Shown: positions 50,176 through 62,329 of the stretch, piece by piece
Layout: the number at the start of each line of letters is the position of its first letter
Numbering within the stretch: position 1 is the stretch's first letter
Assembly (NCBI GenBank): GCA_902556205.1
Contig: CACDVH010000001.1
Span: 124,001-188,000, forward strand
Length of the DNA: 64,000 nt
Reading direction: 5' to 3'
From: an uncultured Gammaproteobacteria bacterium
Lineage (GTDB): Bacteria > Pseudomonadota > Gammaproteobacteria > PS1 > Pseudothioglobaceae
Program-made: the position numbers and the translations under genes
The notes under the pieces: model-generated
What the model was told of the DNA's origin: nothing
The model's database searches: none
Seen by the model: only the letters and a program-made list of their open reading frames with translations

Positions 50176-51492
50176 ATGAGTTTTACAGCAGCTAAAAGAC
50201 ATCATTCAAAAATAGGCTCTCAGCTAAGAGGTGAAGAGGATATTTACAGTCTGAATAAACATGCACTCGGCCCAGGAGAGCTTGCTGAGTCTGAATGGCT
50301 TAAGGCTGGTTTAGCCAATCCAGATATGACCAAAATTAGGGAGTATCGTCTCAAAAGAGTTCGAGAAAAACTTGTTGAATTTGACTGTGCCGGCATTCTT
50401 CTCTATGACCCATTAAATATTCGCTATGCAACGGACAGCACCAATATGTCTTTGTGGACATCCCATAACGCTGCTCGTTACGCGCTTGTGATGACTGAAG
50501 GCCCTGTCATTATTTTTGAGTTTGATGCCCATGAATTTCTTTCAAATCACAACCCCTTAATTACTGAAGTCAGACATGCCGTCACCTATTTATACTTTAC
50601 TGCAGGTGACAAGAGTAAAGAGAGGTCCAAGATATGGGCATCTGAAATTGTTGATATAGTCAAGGAGCATGGCAAAGGAAATAAAAGATTGGCTCTCGAT
50701 CACTGCGCACCTGAGGGAATTCATGAGCTCCAGTCAAATGGCCTAGAACTTGCAAATGGTGAAGAGGTGATGGAACTCGCTAGGCTCATTAAATCAGAAG
50801 ATGAGATGATGGCTATGCGGCGCTCAATCTTTTCGTGTGAAAAGTCTATGGAGCTTATGCGCCATCATTTTAAGCCAGGAATAACTGAACAAGAGCTTTG
50901 GGGTTACTTTCAAATGGAGGCTGTTTCCAGGGGAGCAGAGTGGATTGAGACGAGATTGCTAGCCTCGGGCCCAAGAGCAAATCCATGGTATCAGGAGTGC
51001 TCATCTCGACCTATATTAAGTGGTGAGTTAATGGGCTTTGATACTGACCTAGTTGGATCTTACGGCTACTGTACTGACATGTCTCGGACATGGCTGTGTG
51101 GCGATGAGAAGCCTACGAATGAGCAAAGAGAAATCTATACCATGGGCTATGAGCAAATTCAAAATAATATTGAGTTGTTAAAACCGGGAACAACTTTTAA
51201 AGAGTTAACACTTAACTCTAAAGAGTACTCAAAGGATGAGTTTCGCCATTACTCGGTCCTTTTTCATGGCGTAGGTTTGTGTGATGAGTTCCCTGCAATA
51301 CCATTTAGCTGGGAGTTAAATGAGAACAGTTTTGATGGGGTTCTTCAGCCCGGGATGGTGATGTGTGTCGAGACTTATGTTGGAAGATACAGTGGAGGTC
51401 CTGGTGTGAAACTTGAAGAGCAGGTGTTAATCACTGAAAGTGGCTATGAACTATTAACAAGTTATCCATTTGAAAAAGATTTGTTAAGCTAA
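50176..51492 (+). CDS. dddP: M24-fold enzyme, DddP-like DMSP lyase candidate
   Basis: DPLNIRYATDSTNMSLWTSHN, EWIETRLLASGPRANPWYQECSSRP, GFDTDLVGSYGYCTDMSRTW, HGVGLCDEFP, CVETYV, KLEEQVLI resemble recalled DddP sequence and metal-ligand motifs. Confidence 0.75.
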   Translation: MSFTAAKRHHSKIGSQLRGEEDIYSLNKHALGPGELAESEWLKAGLANPDMTKIREYRLKRVREKLVEFDCAGILLYDPLNIRYATDSTNMSLWTSHNAARYALVMTEGPVIIFEFDAHEFLSNHNPLITEVRHAVTYLYFTAGDKSKERSKIWASEIVDIVKEHGKGNKRLALDHCAPEGIHELQSNGLELANGEEVMELARLIKSEDEMMAMRRSIFSCEKSMELMRHHFKPGITEQELWGYFQMEAVSRGAEWIETRLLASGPRANPWYQECSSRPILSGELMGFDTDLVGSYGYCTDMSRTWLCGDEKPTNEQREIYTMGYEQIQNNIELLKPGTTFKELTLNSKEYSKDEFRHYSVLFHGVGLCDEFPAIPFSWELNENSFDGVLQPGMVMCVETYVGRYSGGPGVKLEEQVLITESGYELLTSYPFEKDLLS

Positions 51493-53697: not shown

Positions 53698-55566
53698 TTA
53701 GGAATTCTTAGTATGCAGATATATTGTATTTCTTGACAGGCCAAGCTGACGAGCCGTTAAAGCAACATTGTAATTACAGTTTTGAAAGGTTGTTCTAATT
53801 TCAAGACAGAGACTCTCCTTTATTGGGTGACCAGCACATTGTTGGCAAAATTGCGTGCCTGTTTTCTTCGGACCCAACACTCTAAAGATTTGATCTTCAT
53901 TGATGATACCCTCAGGCGTATGAACTGCTAAAAGGCGCAACTGTTGATCAAAACTATGAAAGTTATTTTCCCAGCTCATGGCTTGAAGTGAATCTATTGC
54001 ACTTTTATTAAGAACATGCTGTGGTGATATTTTTTTCATAAGACTTACAGCAAGTTTATGAAAGTCTGTTCGCTTGTTAAGCTCAGGAAGTACAAGTTCA
54101 AATCCAAATAGTCTTTCAGATAGACATCTAAGGGATTCATTCTCTGATAACGCGCTAATAGGTAAGCTTGAACTTGAGATTATGACCCATTTATTATTTG
54201 ATTCTTGATCTCTATTTTGAAGTAGATTATCAATCAGTGTATTGAGGCTTGAAGTAATCTCAGCAGAAGCACAATCTAGTTTGTCTAAAAACAATGTTCC
54301 TCCGCACTCTAATTTATAGGATGTACTTGAGGTCTCAATTATATTGCTTGGCGAAGACTGAATATTTGCTATGAAGTGGGCATTAATGGAATCTAACGAA
54401 ACAGTTTCACAGTCAATTGTAATAAAAGCTTTTTGACGATGAGTTCGCTTATGAAGATCTTGGGCAACAATTTTTTTACCGGTACCATATTCACCTTGAA
54501 TTATGACTGTAGAGCCTACCTGAATTGATTTAGTGGCTAGCTTCATATTATATTGAAGCGCCTCATCGTCAAAAATAAAGCCTGTATCATCAATTAAACT
54601 TGCAGCATGATTTTGAGAGACTGGTTCTATTGGCAGAAGAACCTGATCACTTTTAAGCATACTAGCATTAGAATGATTTGGTATTAGACGAGCAAAATAA
54701 ACAGATTGGAGCCAATCTGTGATTTTTGTTTCGCCATTTTTTACAAGCCTATCTAAAATCAAAGAGTAATTCTCATGGAAAAGATCAGAAAAGTTAGACC
54801 CAATATTTGCATTCATGCCAGCAAGAATCTCAATCGCCCTTCGATTAATTCCTAAGACTTTACCATCATGATTAAGTGCAATCATTCCAGCACTTTGCGT
54901 TGCAAGATACTCATGGCGTGGATGCAGAAGAATGATAAAACTATCATTATTTTCTTCAATAAATAATCTATTTTCAATATTTGAAGCAGCTAAGTTTACA
55001 AGCACATTGGTATGATTTTGTCTTGCTGAAATTTCTGATGAAGCATCCAAAAGTCCGACTAATTCCTGATGGCTATTATAAATTGGGGCGGCGACGCATG
55101 AAACTTTAGCTTGCGCCGAAAAATAATGCTCAAGTCCTGTTACCTTTGATGCCTCACCAGTGTGTATTGAAAGTCCAAGTGCATTTGTTCCTCGCGCACT
55201 CTCAGACCAAACTGAGCCAGGTATTATCGATTTACCACAAATAGAATTTTTGAACTCAGTATCCATTATTTGATCGAGCACAACCCCTTCATTGTCAGCA
55301 AATGCTATCAGATAATTTGAACCTGCTATTTGTGAGCTTAGTAATTCAAGCTCAGGTCTTGCAAGCATATGGACTCTCTCCAGTTTTTCTCTGCGAAGAT
55401 TAAGTTCCCTATTTGATAGAACATTTTCATCTGGATTTGAGTTAGGATTCAGCCCCAGATTGATACACCTCTCCCAGCTATCAGCAATAGGCTTGGCTAC
55501 TGCATCATGTGAGAAATGTCCAGTAAGTTCTAAATTTGACCGAGCTTGACTAAAGGAAGAATCCAT
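53698..55566 (-). CDS. AcoR-like GAF/AAA+/Fis-type HTH regulator with degenerate AAA+ motifs
   Basis: GEYGTGKKIVAQDLH, CGGTLFLDKLD, C-terminal NYNVALTARQLGLSRNTIYLH; no GAFTGA. Confidence 0.82.
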   Translation of the reverse strand: MDSSFSQARSNLELTGHFSHDAVAKPIADSWERCINLGLNPNSNPDENVLSNRELNLRREKLERVHMLARPELELLSSQIAGSNYLIAFADNEGVVLDQIMDTEFKNSICGKSIIPGSVWSESARGTNALGLSIHTGEASKVTGLEHYFSAQAKVSCVAAPIYNSHQELVGLLDASSEISARQNHTNVLVNLAASNIENRLFIEENNDSFIILLHPRHEYLATQSAGMIALNHDGKVLGINRRAIEILAGMNANIGSNFSDLFHENYSLILDRLVKNGETKITDWLQSVYFARLIPNHSNASMLKSDQVLLPIEPVSQNHAASLIDDTGFIFDDEALQYNMKLATKSIQVGSTVIIQGEYGTGKKIVAQDLHKRTHRQKAFITIDCETVSLDSINAHFIANIQSSPSNIIETSSTSYKLECGGTLFLDKLDCASAEITSSLNTLIDNLLQNRDQESNNKWVIISSSSLPISALSENESLRCLSERLFGFELVLPELNKRTDFHKLAVSLMKKISPQHVLNKSAIDSLQAMSWENNFHSFDQQLRLLAVHTPEGIINEDQIFRVLGPKKTGTQFCQQCAGHPIKESLCLEIRTTFQNCNYNVALTARQLGLSRNTIYLHTKNS

Positions 55567-55646
55567 ATTAAAAATAATTTTAAAGGTCTATATCAATAGA
55601 TATATTACACTATAACGCTAAAAAGTTCACTTATTGAGCAACCAAA

Positions 55647-55661
55647 GTTCAAAATTTGAAC
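55647..55661. promoter_or_regulatory. Perfect palindrome in divergent intergenic region
   Basis: GTTCAAA-A-TTTGAAC between the AcoR-like gene and the alcohol dehydrogenase gene. Confidence 0.5.
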
Positions 55662-55737
55662 ACCTATAATTTAGTAATAATGGTTTTCATTGTGTAAAAA
55701 GCTCTTTAGATTTTAAATTTTTTTTGGAGAATGCGCA

Positions 55738-56790
55738 TTGAAAGCACAAGTATTACATAAATATGATGATGATTTAGTGGCCCCATCTTGGGTAGATTAC
55801 GAAGATGTTCCAGACCCCATAATAGAAAAAAGTTCTGATGTGATTGTTCGTATTGGAGGAGCTGGTGTTTGCAGGACAGATCTGCATATTATTGAAGGTG
55901 TTTGGCGTGATTCTCAAGATGGTGATGGAAAATTATTACCATTAATCATGGGACATGAAAATGCAGGCTGGGTTGAAGATGTTGGTTCTGAGGTGCAGGG
56001 ACTAAAAAAAGGTGATCCAGTTATAGTTCATCCAAAGATTACTGGTGGTACATGTATAGCCTGTCGTCGTGGCCATGATATGCATGGTGAAGATGGGGCT
56101 TTTCCAGGAGTTAGTTGTGACGGTGGTTATGCTGAAGCACTTAAAACGTCTGTTCGTAATATTGTTAAGCTCCCGCAAACACTTATTCCAAAGGAAGTTG
56201 CTGCTTATGCTGATGCAGGCTTAACGGCTTATCGTGCAGCTAAAAAAGCTTCACGCCATTTGTTGCCTGGACAGAAATGTGTTGTCATAGGTTCAGGCGG
56301 TTTAGGACATATTGGCATTCAGGTATTAAGGTCTATGTGTGCGGCAGATATTATCGTTGTAGATCCATCCGATTTATCACTATCATTAGCCGAATCATGT
56401 GGAGCAGATGCCTTGGTTAAGGCAGATGGTAATGAAGTTCAAAAAGTACTCGAGCTTACTAATGGTCGAGGTGCTGAAGCCGTTTTAGACTTTGTTGCAG
56501 AGCGTGGAACAACTGCTAAAGGCTTGGCGATGACACGTGATATGGGTAGTTATTATGTTATTGGTTATGGTGAAGACATTAATGTTAGTGCCTTTGAGAT
56601 GATTACGACTGAAAAAAATATTATTGGAAATTTAGTTGGAACTTGGGCTGAATTGACAGAACTAATGGAGCTAGCGAATAGAGGGCATGTTCATCTAGCG
56701 ACACAAGAATTTTCATTAGAGAACGCTAATGAAGCTTTACAAGCGTTAAATGGTGGAAAGGTTAAAGGACGTGCAGTCCTTGTACCGTAA
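55738..56790 (+). CDS. Zn-dependent alcohol dehydrogenase
   Basis: GAGVCRTDLHIIEG, IMGHENAGWVEDVGSEVQGLKKGDPVIVHP, VIGSGGLGHIGIQVLR. Start codon TTG. Confidence 0.9.
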   Translation: MKAQVLHKYDDDLVAPSWVDYEDVPDPIIEKSSDVIVRIGGAGVCRTDLHIIEGVWRDSQDGDGKLLPLIMGHENAGWVEDVGSEVQGLKKGDPVIVHPKITGGTCIACRRGHDMHGEDGAFPGVSCDGGYAEALKTSVRNIVKLPQTLIPKEVAAYADAGLTAYRAAKKASRHLLPGQKCVVIGSGGLGHIGIQVLRSMCAADIIVVDPSDLSLSLAESCGADALVKADGNEVQKVLELTNGRGAEAVLDFVAERGTTAKGLAMTRDMGSYYVIGYGEDINVSAFEMITTEKNIIGNLVGTWAELTELMELANRGHVHLATQEFSLENANEALQALNGGKVKGRAVLVP

Positions 56791-56843
56791 ATAGAGAGAA
56801 AAAGATAAGTGTGACTTTCACACAAATAAACTAGGAGATAGTA

Positions 56844-58385
56844 ATGAAATTTAAAACATACAAGAGCGGACTACTCGCTGCGATATGTACTTTTACATTT
56901 TCGCAGGGAGTCAGCGCTGATACGTGGAGTGATCAATTTCCACATATCAAAGGAACTGGAGATATTGCAGGTGAATGTTCGTACGAAGCAATGTCTAAGA
57001 AAGACTATAGTGGAGAAAAGCTACGAATTCTTACTCATGCTGTTCCAGTAATGGGTGAGCCTACTGCATTGCATGCTGATGCTTTTCAAAAACTAACTGG
57101 AGCAGAGGTCAATGTTGTTCATGTTCCAGCTGGTGATCTATATTCAAAATCAATGATTCCATTTCAGACTGGACAAGCGCCATATGATGTCGTGTTCGGT
57201 TTCTCAAACTGGATCAATGACTGGAAGCCATACTTAGAGCCTGTTCCACAAAAGTATTTAGATATGGCACAAATGCAAGACGTTACTGCGAGTCACAAGG
57301 CTATCAACACATGGGAAGGTGATATGTTTCAATTTCCTATTGATGGAGATCGCCATTACCTTAAGTACCGCACCGACGTAATTGAGAATCCTGAATATCA
57401 GGCAAAATATAAAGCTGATACTGGTAGAACTCTTAAAGTGCCAACAACTTGGAAAGAGTATGCAGAGATTGCCACATACTTTAATGGCTGGGATTGGGAT
57501 AATGATGGTGAGCTAGAATATGGCTCAGCTGAAGTGATGAAGAAGGACGACCTAATGTTTGCCGCTTTCTTCTCTAGATCAGTTGGTTATTCTAAAAATC
57601 CAAGAACTCCTGGTGGTTTCTATTTTGATTTAGAAACTATGGAGCCGCTTATTAATAATCCAGGTTTTGTTGAGGCACTGACGGACTGGGTTGAAGCTAC
57701 TAACTATATTCCACCAGGTGGAACTAACTTTGGTCTAGGTGATGAAATTAATTCATTCGGTGGCGGGCAGACATTATTCAGTTTCTCATGGGATGATGCT
57801 TTTGTAGCTGCAATGGAACCAGATAGTGCGATTAGAAACATGGTGAAAGCCGCTCCACTTCCAGGTGCTGAAAAGGTTTGGAATAGAATGGATGGTTCAT
57901 GGGATATGGGTCATAACCATGCTCCATACATCGTTTGGGGCTGGACAGCTGCTGTTCCTAAGAAAGCTAAGAATCAAGAAGTTGCATTTGACTATTTATG
58001 CTTCTTTGCTAATGATGCAAACCACGTTGCTGACTTAGGTGTTGGAAGATTTGGTGTTAATCCATATAAGAAGTCTGACTTTGATGCCGAGATTTATATG
58101 GCTAATGGATGGGATCCATTAGTTGCTTTAAGCTACGCATCAACTCTTATGGAAATGGAAGAATACAGTACAAATCGTGTATTCCCTCTTAAAGTGCCAG
58201 GCACAAATCAGTTTGTATCTGCTGTAGCAACAGGAACTGCAAAAGCTTTAGCTGGTCAACTTAGTCCTCAAGAAGCAATGGACGAAGTCGCTGCAGAGTG
58301 GAAGAAAATCGTCGAAAGAGTAGGCGCTGATAACATCAGAGATGCTTATGCTGTTGGCGTTGCGCTTGAAGATAATATTAATTAA
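56844..58385 (+). CDS. ABC transporter substrate-binding protein (large, GlpV-like)
   Basis: Signal peptide, LRILTHAVPVMGEPTALHADAFQKLTGAEVNVVHVP; followed by two permeases and two ATPases. Confidence 0.85.
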   Translation: MKFKTYKSGLLAAICTFTFSQGVSADTWSDQFPHIKGTGDIAGECSYEAMSKKDYSGEKLRILTHAVPVMGEPTALHADAFQKLTGAEVNVVHVPAGDLYSKSMIPFQTGQAPYDVVFGFSNWINDWKPYLEPVPQKYLDMAQMQDVTASHKAINTWEGDMFQFPIDGDRHYLKYRTDVIENPEYQAKYKADTGRTLKVPTTWKEYAEIATYFNGWDWDNDGELEYGSAEVMKKDDLMFAAFFSRSVGYSKNPRTPGGFYFDLETMEPLINNPGFVEALTDWVEATNYIPPGGTNFGLGDEINSFGGGQTLFSFSWDDAFVAAMEPDSAIRNMVKAAPLPGAEKVWNRMDGSWDMGHNHAPYIVWGWTAAVPKKAKNQEVAFDYLCFFANDANHVADLGVGRFGVNPYKKSDFDAEIYMANGWDPLVALSYASTLMEMEEYSTNRVFPLKVPGTNQFVSAVATGTAKALAGQLSPQEAMDEVAAEWKKIVERVGADNIRDAYAVGVALEDNIN

Positions 58386-58406
58386 TTTATATTAATCTTC
58401 TCCTTG

Positions 58407-58436
58407 TATAACCGCCTTCATTCGAAGGCGGTTATA
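58407..58436 (+). terminator. 13-bp perfect-stem hairpin between binding protein and permease genes
   Basis: TATAACCGCCTTC-ATTC-GAAGGCGGTTATA. Confidence 0.8.
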
Positions 58437-58458
58437 TTTCTTGTTATAATTTTTTGTT

Positions 58459-59331
58459 ATGAATTTTAAACATAAATTTGTTTTTCTTATGCCAGGCCTT
58501 TTAGTTCTGCTTGGTATTTTAATTTTCCCAATTATATTTACCGTTAGGCTGAGTTTTTCAGGATGGGACAGCTTTAATCCTGGTCTAGATTTCATTGGAA
58601 TAGAGAACTATATAAGACTTTTTACAGATGATAAAAGGTTTTGGGAGTCCTTTCTTAGGCTTGGTTTTCTATCAATCACAACGGTTTTTTTACAATATAT
58701 TATTGGCTTTGGTTTAGCATTACTAGTCTGGAAGGAAATTAAATTTAAAAGATTTTTTCGAGTTCTATTTTTAATACCAATGATGACAACACCAGTCATC
58801 ATGACGGTTATTTGGAGAACTTTTTTTCATGAGTCACTAGGGCCTGTTAATGACTTTTTTAGTTTGTTTGGAATGGCCCCACCTTGGTTATCTCATGAAG
58901 TTTTAGCGCTTGTAACAGTTATGATTGTCGAAGTGTGGCAGTGGACTCCTTTTATGTTTTTGCTAATGCTGGCGGGCCTTCTCTCATTACCAAAAGAACC
59001 ATTTTTAGCTGCTGCAATTGATGGTGCAAGCTCAATTAGAAAGTTTATCTACGTCACTTTTCCGTTAATGGCGCCGATTTCCATTGGCGCAATAATTATT
59101 CGATTGATTGAGGCATCCAAGATTATGGATACAATATTTGTTCTCACATCAGGAGGGCCTGGAACCTCTACGGAGACATCAAGCTTTTATATATTTATTA
59201 AAGGCTTAAGAGAGTTTCAGATTGGCTATTCAGCCACGTTATCCTTCACATACTTAATCATTATGATTATTTCTTTAACATTTATAGCTAAATTTCTTAC
59301 TAAAATATTTATGAAAGGAGATGCTGAATGA
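58459..59331 (+). CDS. ABC transporter permease 1
   Basis: Multi-TM; FLAAAIDGASSIRKFIYVTFPLMAPISIG EAA-loop. Confidence 0.9.
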   Translation: MNFKHKFVFLMPGLLVLLGILIFPIIFTVRLSFSGWDSFNPGLDFIGIENYIRLFTDDKRFWESFLRLGFLSITTVFLQYIIGFGLALLVWKEIKFKRFFRVLFLIPMMTTPVIMTVIWRTFFHESLGPVNDFFSLFGMAPPWLSHEVLALVTVMIVEVWQWTPFMFLLMLAGLLSLPKEPFLAAAIDGASSIRKFIYVTFPLMAPISIGAIIIRLIEASKIMDTIFVLTSGGPGTSTETSSFYIFIKGLREFQIGYSATLSFTYLIIMIISLTFIAKFLTKIFMKGDAE

Positions 59332-60176
59332 AAACTCTCTACACCACTTTAAAGTATTCAGCTGTCACTTTATGGTCAATGTTTGTTATTGCTCCTTTTC
59401 TATGGGCTATTTCCACATCTTTTAAGGATTTTAATTCTGTTACATCTGGCGTATCTTATATACCATGGCTTCAATTTGAACCCTCATTTGAAGGTTGGAA
59501 AGTTTTAACAAAACCAGCTTCTGAAGGTGGTATCAATATAGTAGAGCCATACTTTAATAGTATTTTTGTGACGCTTATCTCGAGTTTAATCAGTATTATT
59601 CTCGGAACACTTGCTGCTTATGCTCTTTCAAGGTTTACCTTTAAAGCGGGTTTTGTAAAAAATAGTGACATCACATTTTTCTTTATTTCTCAAAGAATTA
59701 TGCCGCCTATCGTTTTGTCAATACCATTTTTTCTAATGCTTGGTTATCTCAGTTTGTTGGATACTTTGATGGGTCTTGTTATGGTTTACATAGTCCTCTT
59801 AATGCCAATTGCTGTTTGGATCATGGTTGACTTTTTTAATAAAGTTCCTCGAGAGATAGATGAAACGGCCCTTATAGATGGGTGTAACCCTTATCAGGCT
59901 TTTTATAAGGTTGTCCTACCAAACTCTATACCGGGTTTAATTGTTGCAGGTATGTTTTGCATTATCTTCGGATGGATTGATTTCTTTTTTGCCTTTATAT
60001 TAACGTTTACAGAGGTTCAATTGCTTCCTGTAGCTATCGTTGCACTTAACTCTTCAATTACACCATGGTGGAGTTTGTCTGCAGCTGCTTTAGTTTCAGT
60101 AGCTCCATTAATTGTTGTTGCATTCATAGTCGAGCGATATCTATCAAAAGGAAATCTTTCAGGAGCAATTAAGTAA
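59328..60176 (+). CDS. ABC transporter permease 2
   Basis: Multi-TM; IDETALIDGCNPYQAFYKVVLPNSIPGLIVAG EAA-loop. Confidence 0.9.
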   Translation: MKTLYTTLKYSAVTLWSMFVIAPFLWAISTSFKDFNSVTSGVSYIPWLQFEPSFEGWKVLTKPASEGGINIVEPYFNSIFVTLISSLISIILGTLAAYALSRFTFKAGFVKNSDITFFFISQRIMPPIVLSIPFFLMLGYLSLLDTLMGLVMVYIVLLMPIAVWIMVDFFNKVPREIDETALIDGCNPYQAFYKVVLPNSIPGLIVAGMFCIIFGWIDFFFAFILTFTEVQLLPVAIVALNSSITPWWSLSAAALVSVAPLIVVAFIVERYLSKGNLSGAIK

Positions 60177-61253
60177 ATGAAATTAGTTACAAAAAATTTA
60201 ACATTTAAGCCTGAAGATGAATACTATCTTAATGATGTGTCTCTTGAATTTGAAGCTGGAAGGCTCTATACAATTCTTGGAAGAACACTTTCAGGCAAGA
60301 CCTCCTTTTTAAAAACAATAGCCGGCCTTCAGCCAGTTGATGAGGGTGAAATTACTCTTGGTGAAAAAGACTTCAGATCTATTCCTGTGTGGGAGAGAAA
60401 TGTAGCAATGGTCTATCAGCAATTTATCAATTATCCTCATTTAAATGTTTATGAAAATATTGCTTTTCCTTTAAAGCAAAGAAAAATGAGTGCTGCTGAT
60501 ATCAAACAAGAGGTTGCAGTCGCCATCAGTCAGGTAGGGCTTGAAGGCTTTGAAGCTAGAAAAATACAGGAGCTCTCCGGTGGGCAGCAACAAAGAGTTG
60601 CACTTGCAAGGTCTCTTGCAAAGAAAGCTAAAATTTTGCTCCTTGATGAGCCTTTAGTGAATCTAGACTATAAATTAAGGGAAGACTTAAGGGACGTGTT
60701 CAAGAATCTTTTTGATAGCGACCTCTCAACTGAATCTATTCTAATATATGCCAGTACTGATCCTCAAGAGGCAATGCAGTTAAATGGGGATATTGTTGTG
60801 ATTGATGAAGGGAGAGTTTTGCAAACAGGCCCTGCAAAAGAAGTCTTTGAAAACCCTGCAAATATTAAAGTCGCAGAGATTACTAATGATCCAGCTATGA
60901 ACATCCTTCCTGGCATCATTGATGATAAAGAAATTATCTTTAATGAAGATTTTAAGCTTAATCTTCCGTCCCACTTGAGCCATTTAGACTCTGGTAAATA
61001 TTTTTTTGGAGTTAGAGCAACCGATTTGAAATTAGATAATTCTGGTTTTAATTTCACTGTCGACATTTCTGAAATTTCTGGTTCTGAAACTTTCCTTCAC
61101 ATGCATCAGGATGAATTAAAAGTTGTTTTGATGATTGAAGAAGTTCGCAATTTTAATCTTGATGATCAAGTCAAAATAAGTATGGATATGAACAGATTGT
61201 ACGTTTTTGATGCAAATGGTGATTTAATTTTTTCACCATATAGGGGTAACTAA
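60177..61253 (+). CDS. ABC transporter ATPase 1 (LSGGQ intact, H-loop altered)
   Basis: LGRTLSGKTSFLK, LSGGQQQRVALARSLAK, LLLDEPLVNLD, LIYASTDPQEAM. Confidence 0.92.
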   Translation: MKLVTKNLTFKPEDEYYLNDVSLEFEAGRLYTILGRTLSGKTSFLKTIAGLQPVDEGEITLGEKDFRSIPVWERNVAMVYQQFINYPHLNVYENIAFPLKQRKMSAADIKQEVAVAISQVGLEGFEARKIQELSGGQQQRVALARSLAKKAKILLLDEPLVNLDYKLREDLRDVFKNLFDSDLSTESILIYASTDPQEAMQLNGDIVVIDEGRVLQTGPAKEVFENPANIKVAEITNDPAMNILPGIIDDKEIIFNEDFKLNLPSHLSHLDSGKYFFGVRATDLKLDNSGFNFTVDISEISGSETFLHMHQDELKVVLMIEEVRNFNLDDQVKISMDMNRLYVFDANGDLIFSPYRGN

Positions 61254-62329
61254 TGGCAAAAATTGAATTTAAAAATGTTGGCCATTGTTATGATGTGAGT
61301 GCTGAAAATAAAGTATATGCCCTAAACCCCTTCTCATTGACCTGGGAGGATGGAGGAAGGTACGCTTTATTAGGGCCATCAGGTTGTGGAAAGACAACGA
61401 TGCTTAACATTATGTCAGGCTTAATTACTCCATCTGATGGTAATGTCTATTTTGATGAAAATGATATTACAAATGTTATCACTGAGGAGCGAAACATAGC
61501 CCAAGTTTTCCAGTTTCCAGTTATTTATAACACCATGACAGTTTTTGATAATTTAGCATTCCCGCTCAGGTGTCGAAAATTTGATGAGGATAAAATCAAA
61601 ACTAAAGTTCATGAGGTTGCTGAGCTATTAAATTTAACTGAGTTTTTGAATAAGCTTACAAAAAAATTAACAGCTGATCAAAAACAACTTATTTCACTGG
61701 GTAGAGGTCTAGTTCGAGAAGATGTTGCAGCAGTGCTGATGGATGAGCCTCTTACAGTAATTGACCCTGACTTGAAATTCAAATTAAGAAGAAAGCTTAA
61801 GGAGATCAATGCTAAATATAAAACGACACTTATCTATGTGACACATGATCAGAATGAAGCAATGACCTTTGCTGATAATATTATTGTCATGAATGAGGGA
61901 AATGTTGTTCAGATAGGCACACCAAAAGAGCTCTTTGAGAAACCTAAAACAACTTTTGTGGGCTACTTTATTGGCTCTCCAGCAATGAACATTTATCCTT
62001 GCGATGCTGTTTCAGATGATGAGGTTTCTATTGGAGGTTTAAAGCTAAAAGTAAATACAAAGTTACCAGACTCTCAAAAAAGTAATTTAAAGCTTGGCAT
62101 ACGCTCTGAGTATATCAATGTAGTGAATAAGAAATCAGAAAATACAGTTGAAGCTAATATAAATTTAGTTGAAGATTTTGGTAACTATAAGCTCATTTCT
62201 GCAACTAATGATAATATTCAAATTAAAGTAAAAGTAAAGAGAGAAAGCGTCATTCCTGAAGATAAAATTTTGCTAGAAATTCCACCAGAGCACTGCTGTA
62301 TTTATAATAATGAAGAGCTAGTAGAATAA
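61253..62329 (+). CDS. ABC transporter ATPase 2 (signature altered, H-loop intact)
   Basis: [54 protein letters not shown]. Confidence 0.92.
   Translation: MAKIEFKNVGHCYDVSAENKVYALNPFSLTWEDGGRYALLGPSGCGKTTMLNIMSGLITPSDGNVYFDENDITNVITEERNIAQVFQFPVIYNTMTVFDNLAFPLRCRKFDEDKIKTKVHEVAELLNLTEFLNKLTKKLTADQKQLISLGRGLVREDVAAVLMDEPLTVIDPDLKFKLRRKLKEINAKYKTTLIYVTHDQNEAMTFADNIIVMNEGNVVQIGTPKELFEKPKTTFVGYFIGSPAMNIYPCDAVSDDEVSIGGLKLKVNTKLPDSQKSNLKLGIRSEYINVVNKKSENTVEANINLVEDFGNYKLISATNDNIQIKVKVKRESVIPEDKILLEIPPEHCCIYNNEELVE

Follow-up and report, generated by a model that had tools for sequence, protein, structure and literature searches.

Probable loss of sigma-54 dependence by an AcoR/DhaR-like regulator and its alcohol dehydrogenase promoter in a Pseudothioglobaceae genome

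The regulator encoded beside an alcohol dehydrogenase (ADH) operon in an uncultured gammaproteobacterium of the Pseudothioglobaceae is, with a probability of roughly three in four, an AcoR/DhaR-like relative of the bacterial enhancer-binding proteins (bEBPs) that no longer works through sigma-54 and likely acts via the housekeeping RNA polymerase. The gene lies in a 64,000-nucleotide stretch of DNA (GenBank assembly GCA_902556205.1, contig CACDVH010000001.1, positions 124,001 to 188,000 of the forward strand), hereafter the window, from whose first letter all coordinates are counted unless another contig or locus is named. Sigma-54 promoters depend on remodelling by an ATPase and sigma-70 promoters on recruitment, and the crossing of a regulator from one to the other is rarely traceable. 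A preliminary description of the sequence had proposed a DNA-binding regulator independent of sigma-54, a proposal supported by the motif losses, by the lack of an rpoN match and by the lack of a -24/-12 element at the target. To these sequence-level observations are added the retention and shift of the operators, the synteny of the locus and purifying selection in relatives. Action with sigma-70, and activation rather than repression, are what we infer from them. The regulator gene and its parts are as follows.

53698 to 55566, minus strand: regulator gene, 622 aa, encoding GAF, PAS-like, degenerate AAA+, tri-cysteine linker and Fis-type helix-turn-helix (open reading frame and Pfam)
54985 to 55368, minus strand: GAF domain, residues 67-194 (Pfam)
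54745 to 54903, minus strand: PAS-like domain, residues 222-274 (weak Pfam match, below cut-off)
53911 to 54573, minus strand: degenerate AAA+ domain, residues 332-552, with a predicted bEBP fold (Pfam and model)
54472 to 54495, minus strand: Walker A GEYGTGKK, residues 358-365, Lys retained (translation and alignment)
54331 to 54372, minus strand: L1 region IANIQSSPSNIIET, residues 399-412, GAFTGA absent (alignment)
54274 to 54303, minus strand: Walker B GGTLFLDKLD, residues 422-431 (translation and alignment)
53806 to 53847, minus strand: tri-cysteine linker C574-x2-C577-x9-C587 (family alignment)
53719 to 53799, minus strand: Fis-type helix-turn-helix, residues 590-616 (translation, Pfam and alignment)

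The reading frame begins with ATG and contains no internal stop. By descent the protein belongs to the bEBP superfamily, with a Pfam Sigma54_activat match at residues 332-448 (E 2.5e-12) and a C-terminal Fis helix-turn-helix. The latter, VALTARQLGLSRNTIYLH at residues 601-618, is as it had been described from the sequence, and its HTH_8 score of 21.1 bits falls just below the Pfam cut-off of 22. In the AlphaFold2 model (mean pLDDT 87), the AAA+ region stays bEBP-like and matches bEBP folds, and a structural search places the N-terminal GAF and PAS region closest to the solved N-domain of E. coli DhaR. For comparison, a family of 84 aligned members, the window protein included, was assembled from tblastn matches on plasmids and from species genomes scanned with a profile. 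The tri-cysteine linker, located between the AAA+ domain and the helix-turn-helix, is present in 84 of 84 members and in both promoter classes, is missing from six more distant bEBPs and, together with the GAF residue Cys157 (likewise invariant, 84/84), is on sequence a hallmark of the family. A role for the linker as a metal or redox sensor is possible.

The changes in the AAA+ domain affect both the contact with sigma-54 and the hydrolysis of ATP. In Walker B, Asp428 is retained and the position of the catalytic Glu is occupied by Lys429, as the preliminary description had read it, and the Walker A-like motif that it reported is likewise present, with its Lys. The aligned L1 region reads IANIQSS-PSNIIET and coincides in the model with a low-confidence loop at residues 407-415. 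An alignment with 83 homologues and with E. coli DhaR, TyrR and PspF recovered neither GAFTGA nor the Walker B Glu elsewhere in the protein, which leaves the earlier reading of a loss unrefuted. Further substitutions are found at sensor I (Asn to Ser), R-finger 1 (to Leu) and sensor II (Arg to His), and the Arg of R-finger 2 is retained. What would identify a functional sigma-54 activator, namely the GAFTGA loop, the set of Walker B Asp-Glu, sensor and R-finger residues, and rpoN together with a -24/-12 element at the target, was not found for this regulator.

To evaluate the genomic background, PF04552, the DNA-binding domain of sigma-54, was searched for in the window genome (92% complete) and 28 congeners, two of which are single-contig assemblies at 99% completeness. 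No match was obtained (0 of 29), so the proposed independence from sigma-54 stands, and the same search detects rpoN in the controls where it is expected and in 16 of 21 genomes sampled from other families of the class. Of the PF00158 matches in the window genome, only that of the regulator's AAA+ domain is strong; two others are near or below the cut-off. One congener without an rpoN match (G001, 3% contamination) has two bEBP-like matches, at G001:C43:1213-1509 and G001:C66:8075-9001, possibly on foreign contigs. Among 19 hosts of degenerate regulators from the main loop-less group described below (completeness unstated), nine have a full rpoN, nine have none and one has fragments with a stop codon, whereas rpoN is present in all four sampled hosts of intact regulators. 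Because of this half-way split, rpoN loss alone does not explain why contact with sigma-54 was given up. In the genome with fragments (G065, the host of the degenerate regulator at locus L070), the sigma-54 DNA-binding domain consists of two pieces with an internal TAG (G065:C25:152711-153158), possibly an rpoN gene in decay.

Within the family, 31 of the 84 members have a GAFTNA-type loop and complete catalytic residues, and 53, the window regulator among them, are without the loop; 47 of these 53 also lack the Walker B Asp-Glu. The six loop-less members that keep Asp-Glu, read from the alignment (L126, L131, L134, L135, L076 and L078; Paracoccus, Limimaricola and others), have no -24/-12 element at the ADH promoter and may represent an intermediate step. 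In a tree calculated without the AAA+ domain, 48 loop-less members including that of the window lie on one side of a branch with an SH-aLRT support of 93, or 83 in a reduced set from which long branches were removed. The remaining five form a second group of Tabrizicola and four Paracoccus/Limimaricola-type members, and a topology test does not reject a single loss covering both groups (p 0.52). The phylogeny is thus one of only one or two transitions, and the loop loss is derived, as the nearer outgroup bEBPs are intact. In 49 members scored as degenerate, Walker A retains Lys in 40 and has Arg in 9, whereas the Walker B Glu, sensor I and R-finger 1 positions scatter. The AAA+ domain is under constraint in degenerate pairs, as its dN/dS is 0.1-0.4; its dN exceeds that of the GAF-PAS region in 12 of 12 degenerate pairs and is lower in 3 of 3 intact pairs. 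The loss of sigma-54 function that had been attributed to this regulator is therefore upheld as a loss but not as a private trait: it is common to a large clade of mostly marine bacteria, some members of which reside in genomes with rpoN.

Divergent from the regulator gene is its predicted target operon.

55738 to 56790, plus strand: zinc-dependent ADH, first gene, TTG start
56844 to 58385, plus strand: extracellular solute-binding protein
58459 to 59331, plus strand: ABC permease 1
59328 to 60176, plus strand: ABC permease 2
60177 to 61253, plus strand: ABC ATPase 1 (UgpC/MalK type)
61253 to 62329, plus strand: ABC ATPase 2 (UgpC/MalK type)

No substrate was named for the solute-binding protein, as its PDB match (trehalose/maltose type, E 0.00026) is too weak. 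Across the family, a divergent ADH gene adjoins most regulators, followed in many loci by the ABC operon; in others, the ADH gene is near an aromatic/alkene-type diiron monooxygenase cluster. On a Ponticoccus plasmid, a gene annotated 'RNA polymerase subunit sigma-54' (L044:16997-18256) is located between the ADH/ABC regulator locus and such a cluster. An Rfam search of the window gave no match.

The promoters of the ADH genes divide with the state of the regulator. Using sigma-54 and sigma-70 score tables written from general knowledge, a strong TGGCAC-type -24/-12 element was found 61-73 bp from the ADH start codon in 29 of 30 intact loci, and none was found at the expected place in 40 loop-less loci, that of the window included. 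A strict-pattern version of the scan returned 28 of 29 and 0 of 40, respectively. The check on target promoters thus agrees with the preliminary description: the window promoter lacks the element that homologues with an intact AAA+ domain have at the same gene. The association between regulator state and promoter is nearly perfect, yet it contains one independent phylogenetic pair and, with this single contrast on the tree, is evidence for one coordinated change and not for many. With its tri-cysteine linker, divergent ADH gene, common operator and missing -24/-12 element, the window regulator falls within the loop-less ADH-linked clade.

The predicted operator, common to the intact and loop-less classes, is the palindrome TGTTCA-N5-TGAACA, which generally occurs as a pair spaced by about 32 bp. 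The elements in the window are listed here.

55625 to 55640, no strand assigned: distal predicted operator GTTCACTTATTGAGCA (operator model)
55647 to 55662, no strand assigned: proximal predicted operator GTTCAAAATTTGAACA (operator model)
55665 to 55670: competing TATAAT abutting the proximal operator, which would give a different geometry
55672 to 55700, plus strand: candidate sigma-70-type promoter of the ADH operon, TAGTAA-17-TAAAAA, in the clade-wide register, weak in the window copy

The sequences on which the operator model was trained are the ones it scores here, and its seed was chosen by eye, so that its weight rests on common position and spacing. In the window, the two copies are 22 bp apart from centre to centre, compared to about 32 bp in relatives, and the exact pattern occurs three times in the genome; the third copy lies in a coding region and was treated as fortuitous. 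Relative to the ADH start, the best predicted operator has a median position of -160 in intact and about -112 in degenerate loci, and the proximal one is at about -129 and about -84, respectively, which brings the pair some 45 bp nearer to the ADH gene in the main loop-less group. At the proximal site of degenerate loci, the right half is kept at 5.7 of 6 positions versus 1.9 of 6 for the left half. In 18 degenerate representatives, a -35/-10 score peak with its -10 at 32-33 bp past the proximal half-site exceeds all 150 shuffles, and the intact control class gives a weaker signal, borderline when the exact offset is tested. The sigma-70-type promoter expected of a DhaR-like regulator is accordingly a statistically supported signal at the level of the clade and weak in the window copy. 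The abutting TATAAT, a second candidate for the -10 element, was not adopted in view of this better-supported register.

Comparison with characterized proteins places the window regulator closest to E. coli DhaR, with which it shares the GAF-PAS-AAA-HTH order, the missing GAFTGA and a broken Walker B (FLEK in DhaR), and which is its best full-length NCBIfam match (E 1.8e-41). The score against the DhaR equivalog NF008485 is, however, 142.2 bits, far from the curated cut-off of 551, and DhaR has no tri-cysteine linker and targets dhaKLM. E. coli TyrR is also a bEBP relative without GAFTGA that acts on sigma-70 promoters, but it has an intact Walker B (LLDEIGE), whereas the window protein carries GAF and PAS-like domains; the TyrR profile matches over a short AAA+ stretch only, and the regulator is not classed with TyrR. 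The earlier comparison with TyrR-type proteins is therefore apt as to kind, a GAFTGA-less protein that probably acts with sigma-70, and less so as to the closest parallel, which by profile, N-domain structure and broken Walker B is DhaR. Rhodobacter capsulatus NtrC and HupR, Caulobacter NtrC and Vibrio VpsR are similar as bEBPs whose L1 loop is deleted or defective and which work, or are thought to work, with sigma-70. To our knowledge, these are not GAF-PAS (AcoR/DhaR-type) proteins, and Caulobacter NtrC differs in that its Walker A and B residues are still needed. Intact AcoR-like regulators beside ADH in Rhizobium, Aminobacter, Labrys, Ancylobacter and others (L080-L133) are homologous throughout and share the divergent ADH gene, often near a diiron monooxygenase cluster, the operator pair and the tri-cysteine linker; they differ in their GAFTNA-type loop, complete Walker B, sensors and R-fingers, and -24/-12 element. 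GAFTGA-less activators are a known kind: TyrR, DhaR and HupR are GAFTGA-defective and sigma-70-dependent, VpsR and YplP are suspected to be, defective EBPs have been noted in species without sigma-54 (PMC3162934), and Caulobacter and Rhodobacter NtrC lack the loop (PMC10274813).

In the mechanism that we propose, the GAF-PAS sensor and the tri-cysteine linker would probably receive a metabolic or redox signal, and the Fis helix-turn-helix is predicted to bind the operator pair between the regulator gene and the ADH/ABC operon. The AAA+ domain lacks the parts for hydrolysis and sigma-54 contact. With its predicted fold and its Walker A Lys kept, it may still bind nucleotide and contribute to oligomerisation, and it likely serves a structural or nucleotide-binding purpose. 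With the operators beside a sigma-70-type promoter, the regulator would most likely act by direct contact with the housekeeping RNA polymerase.

Several other explanations were weighed against this one. The protein could act mainly as a repressor: bound to operators beside or across the sigma-70 promoter, it would keep the ADH operon, and its own gene, silent until it senses a ligand, and would not activate at all. Both predicted operators are near the start region, the TATAAT abuts the proximal one in the window, and occupancy alone would be enough for repression by a protein without an ATPase cycle. In the best-supported sigma-70 register, however, the proximal operator is upstream of the -35 element and not over the promoter, and the pair and its spacing are common to intact sigma-54-type relatives, in which upstream sites normally serve activation; we regard repression as the main function as unlikely. 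Continued use of sigma-54, for which rpoN would have to reside in the 8% that the assembly lacks and a divergent loop would have to stand in for GAFTGA, would fit the incompleteness of the assembly but is extremely improbable, given that 28 of 28 congeners have no rpoN match either, that the target has no -24/-12 element and that catalytic residues are gone besides the loop. An ATP-dependent role of the AAA+ domain, such as oligomerisation driven by nucleotide binding for sigma-70 activation, is compatible with the proposed mechanism and no strict rival to it. By analogy with R. capsulatus NtrC, which reportedly requires that ATP be bound, though not hydrolysed (PMC10274813), and from the Walker A Lys kept while hydrolysis residues scatter, such a role is quite conceivable, if still short of an even chance; the Arg in place of Lys in nine members argues against it.

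Gene decay, in which the AAA+ losses would reflect selection relaxed as the genome shrinks and the protein would be heading for loss, draws support from two congeners from which the locus is absent.

53946 to 62292, no strand assigned: segment absent in congener G002 (genome comparison)
about 53817 to 62068: segment absent in congener G005 (genome comparison)

In both genomes, C-terminal regulator stubs remain (matches of 82 and 43 residues), and 25 other congeners, many of them incomplete, show no trace of the regulator. The regulator and the ADH/ABC operon are nevertheless absent together as one block, with endpoints that differ (L038 about 1154; L039 about 8451), and the window copy is a full 622-aa frame. 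Over 82 codons, the G002 stub differs from it by 10 synonymous and 3 non-synonymous changes, and the same degenerate state recurs in many genomes, of Roseobacter type and others, at dN/dS values far below 1. Decay is thus a distinctly improbable account. In other congeners, no ADH gene was found at E 1e-60.

Beyond the single locus, the sequence comparisons make it slightly better than an even bet that this family preserves, as a record in nature, a joint move of regulator and promoter from sigma-54 to sigma-70 control, with the operator pair retained at a position some 45 bp nearer to the ADH start and the -24/-12 element gone. Since the conversion is also seen in genomes with rpoN, it may have enabled the module to persist in, or spread to, streamlined marine genomes without rpoN. 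The novelty would lie in this joint change on both sides: a literature search of partial coverage found no case that compares a sigma-54 version of one regulator-target pair directly with its converted version at the same operators. With the same gene pair and operators in both states and possible intermediates, the order of loop loss, promoter change and ATPase decay becomes directly testable. Automated 'sigma-54-dependent' annotations of this regulator family can be wrong, and a genus of bacteria with small genomes seems to have kept such a regulator after losing sigma-54.

The histories of the regulator and the operon (55738-62329) differ in the trees, the ADH grouping the window with a marine Roseobacter group and the regulator grouping it with Octadecabacter/OCS116. 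This discordance may reflect recombination between the two, but an origin from different lineages remains a suggestion, since the alternative survives the AU test (p 0.058). Elsewhere in the window, positions 50176-51492 encode an M24-family protein whose best NCBIfam match is the DMSP lyase DddP, at 476 bits and below the cut-off of 600.
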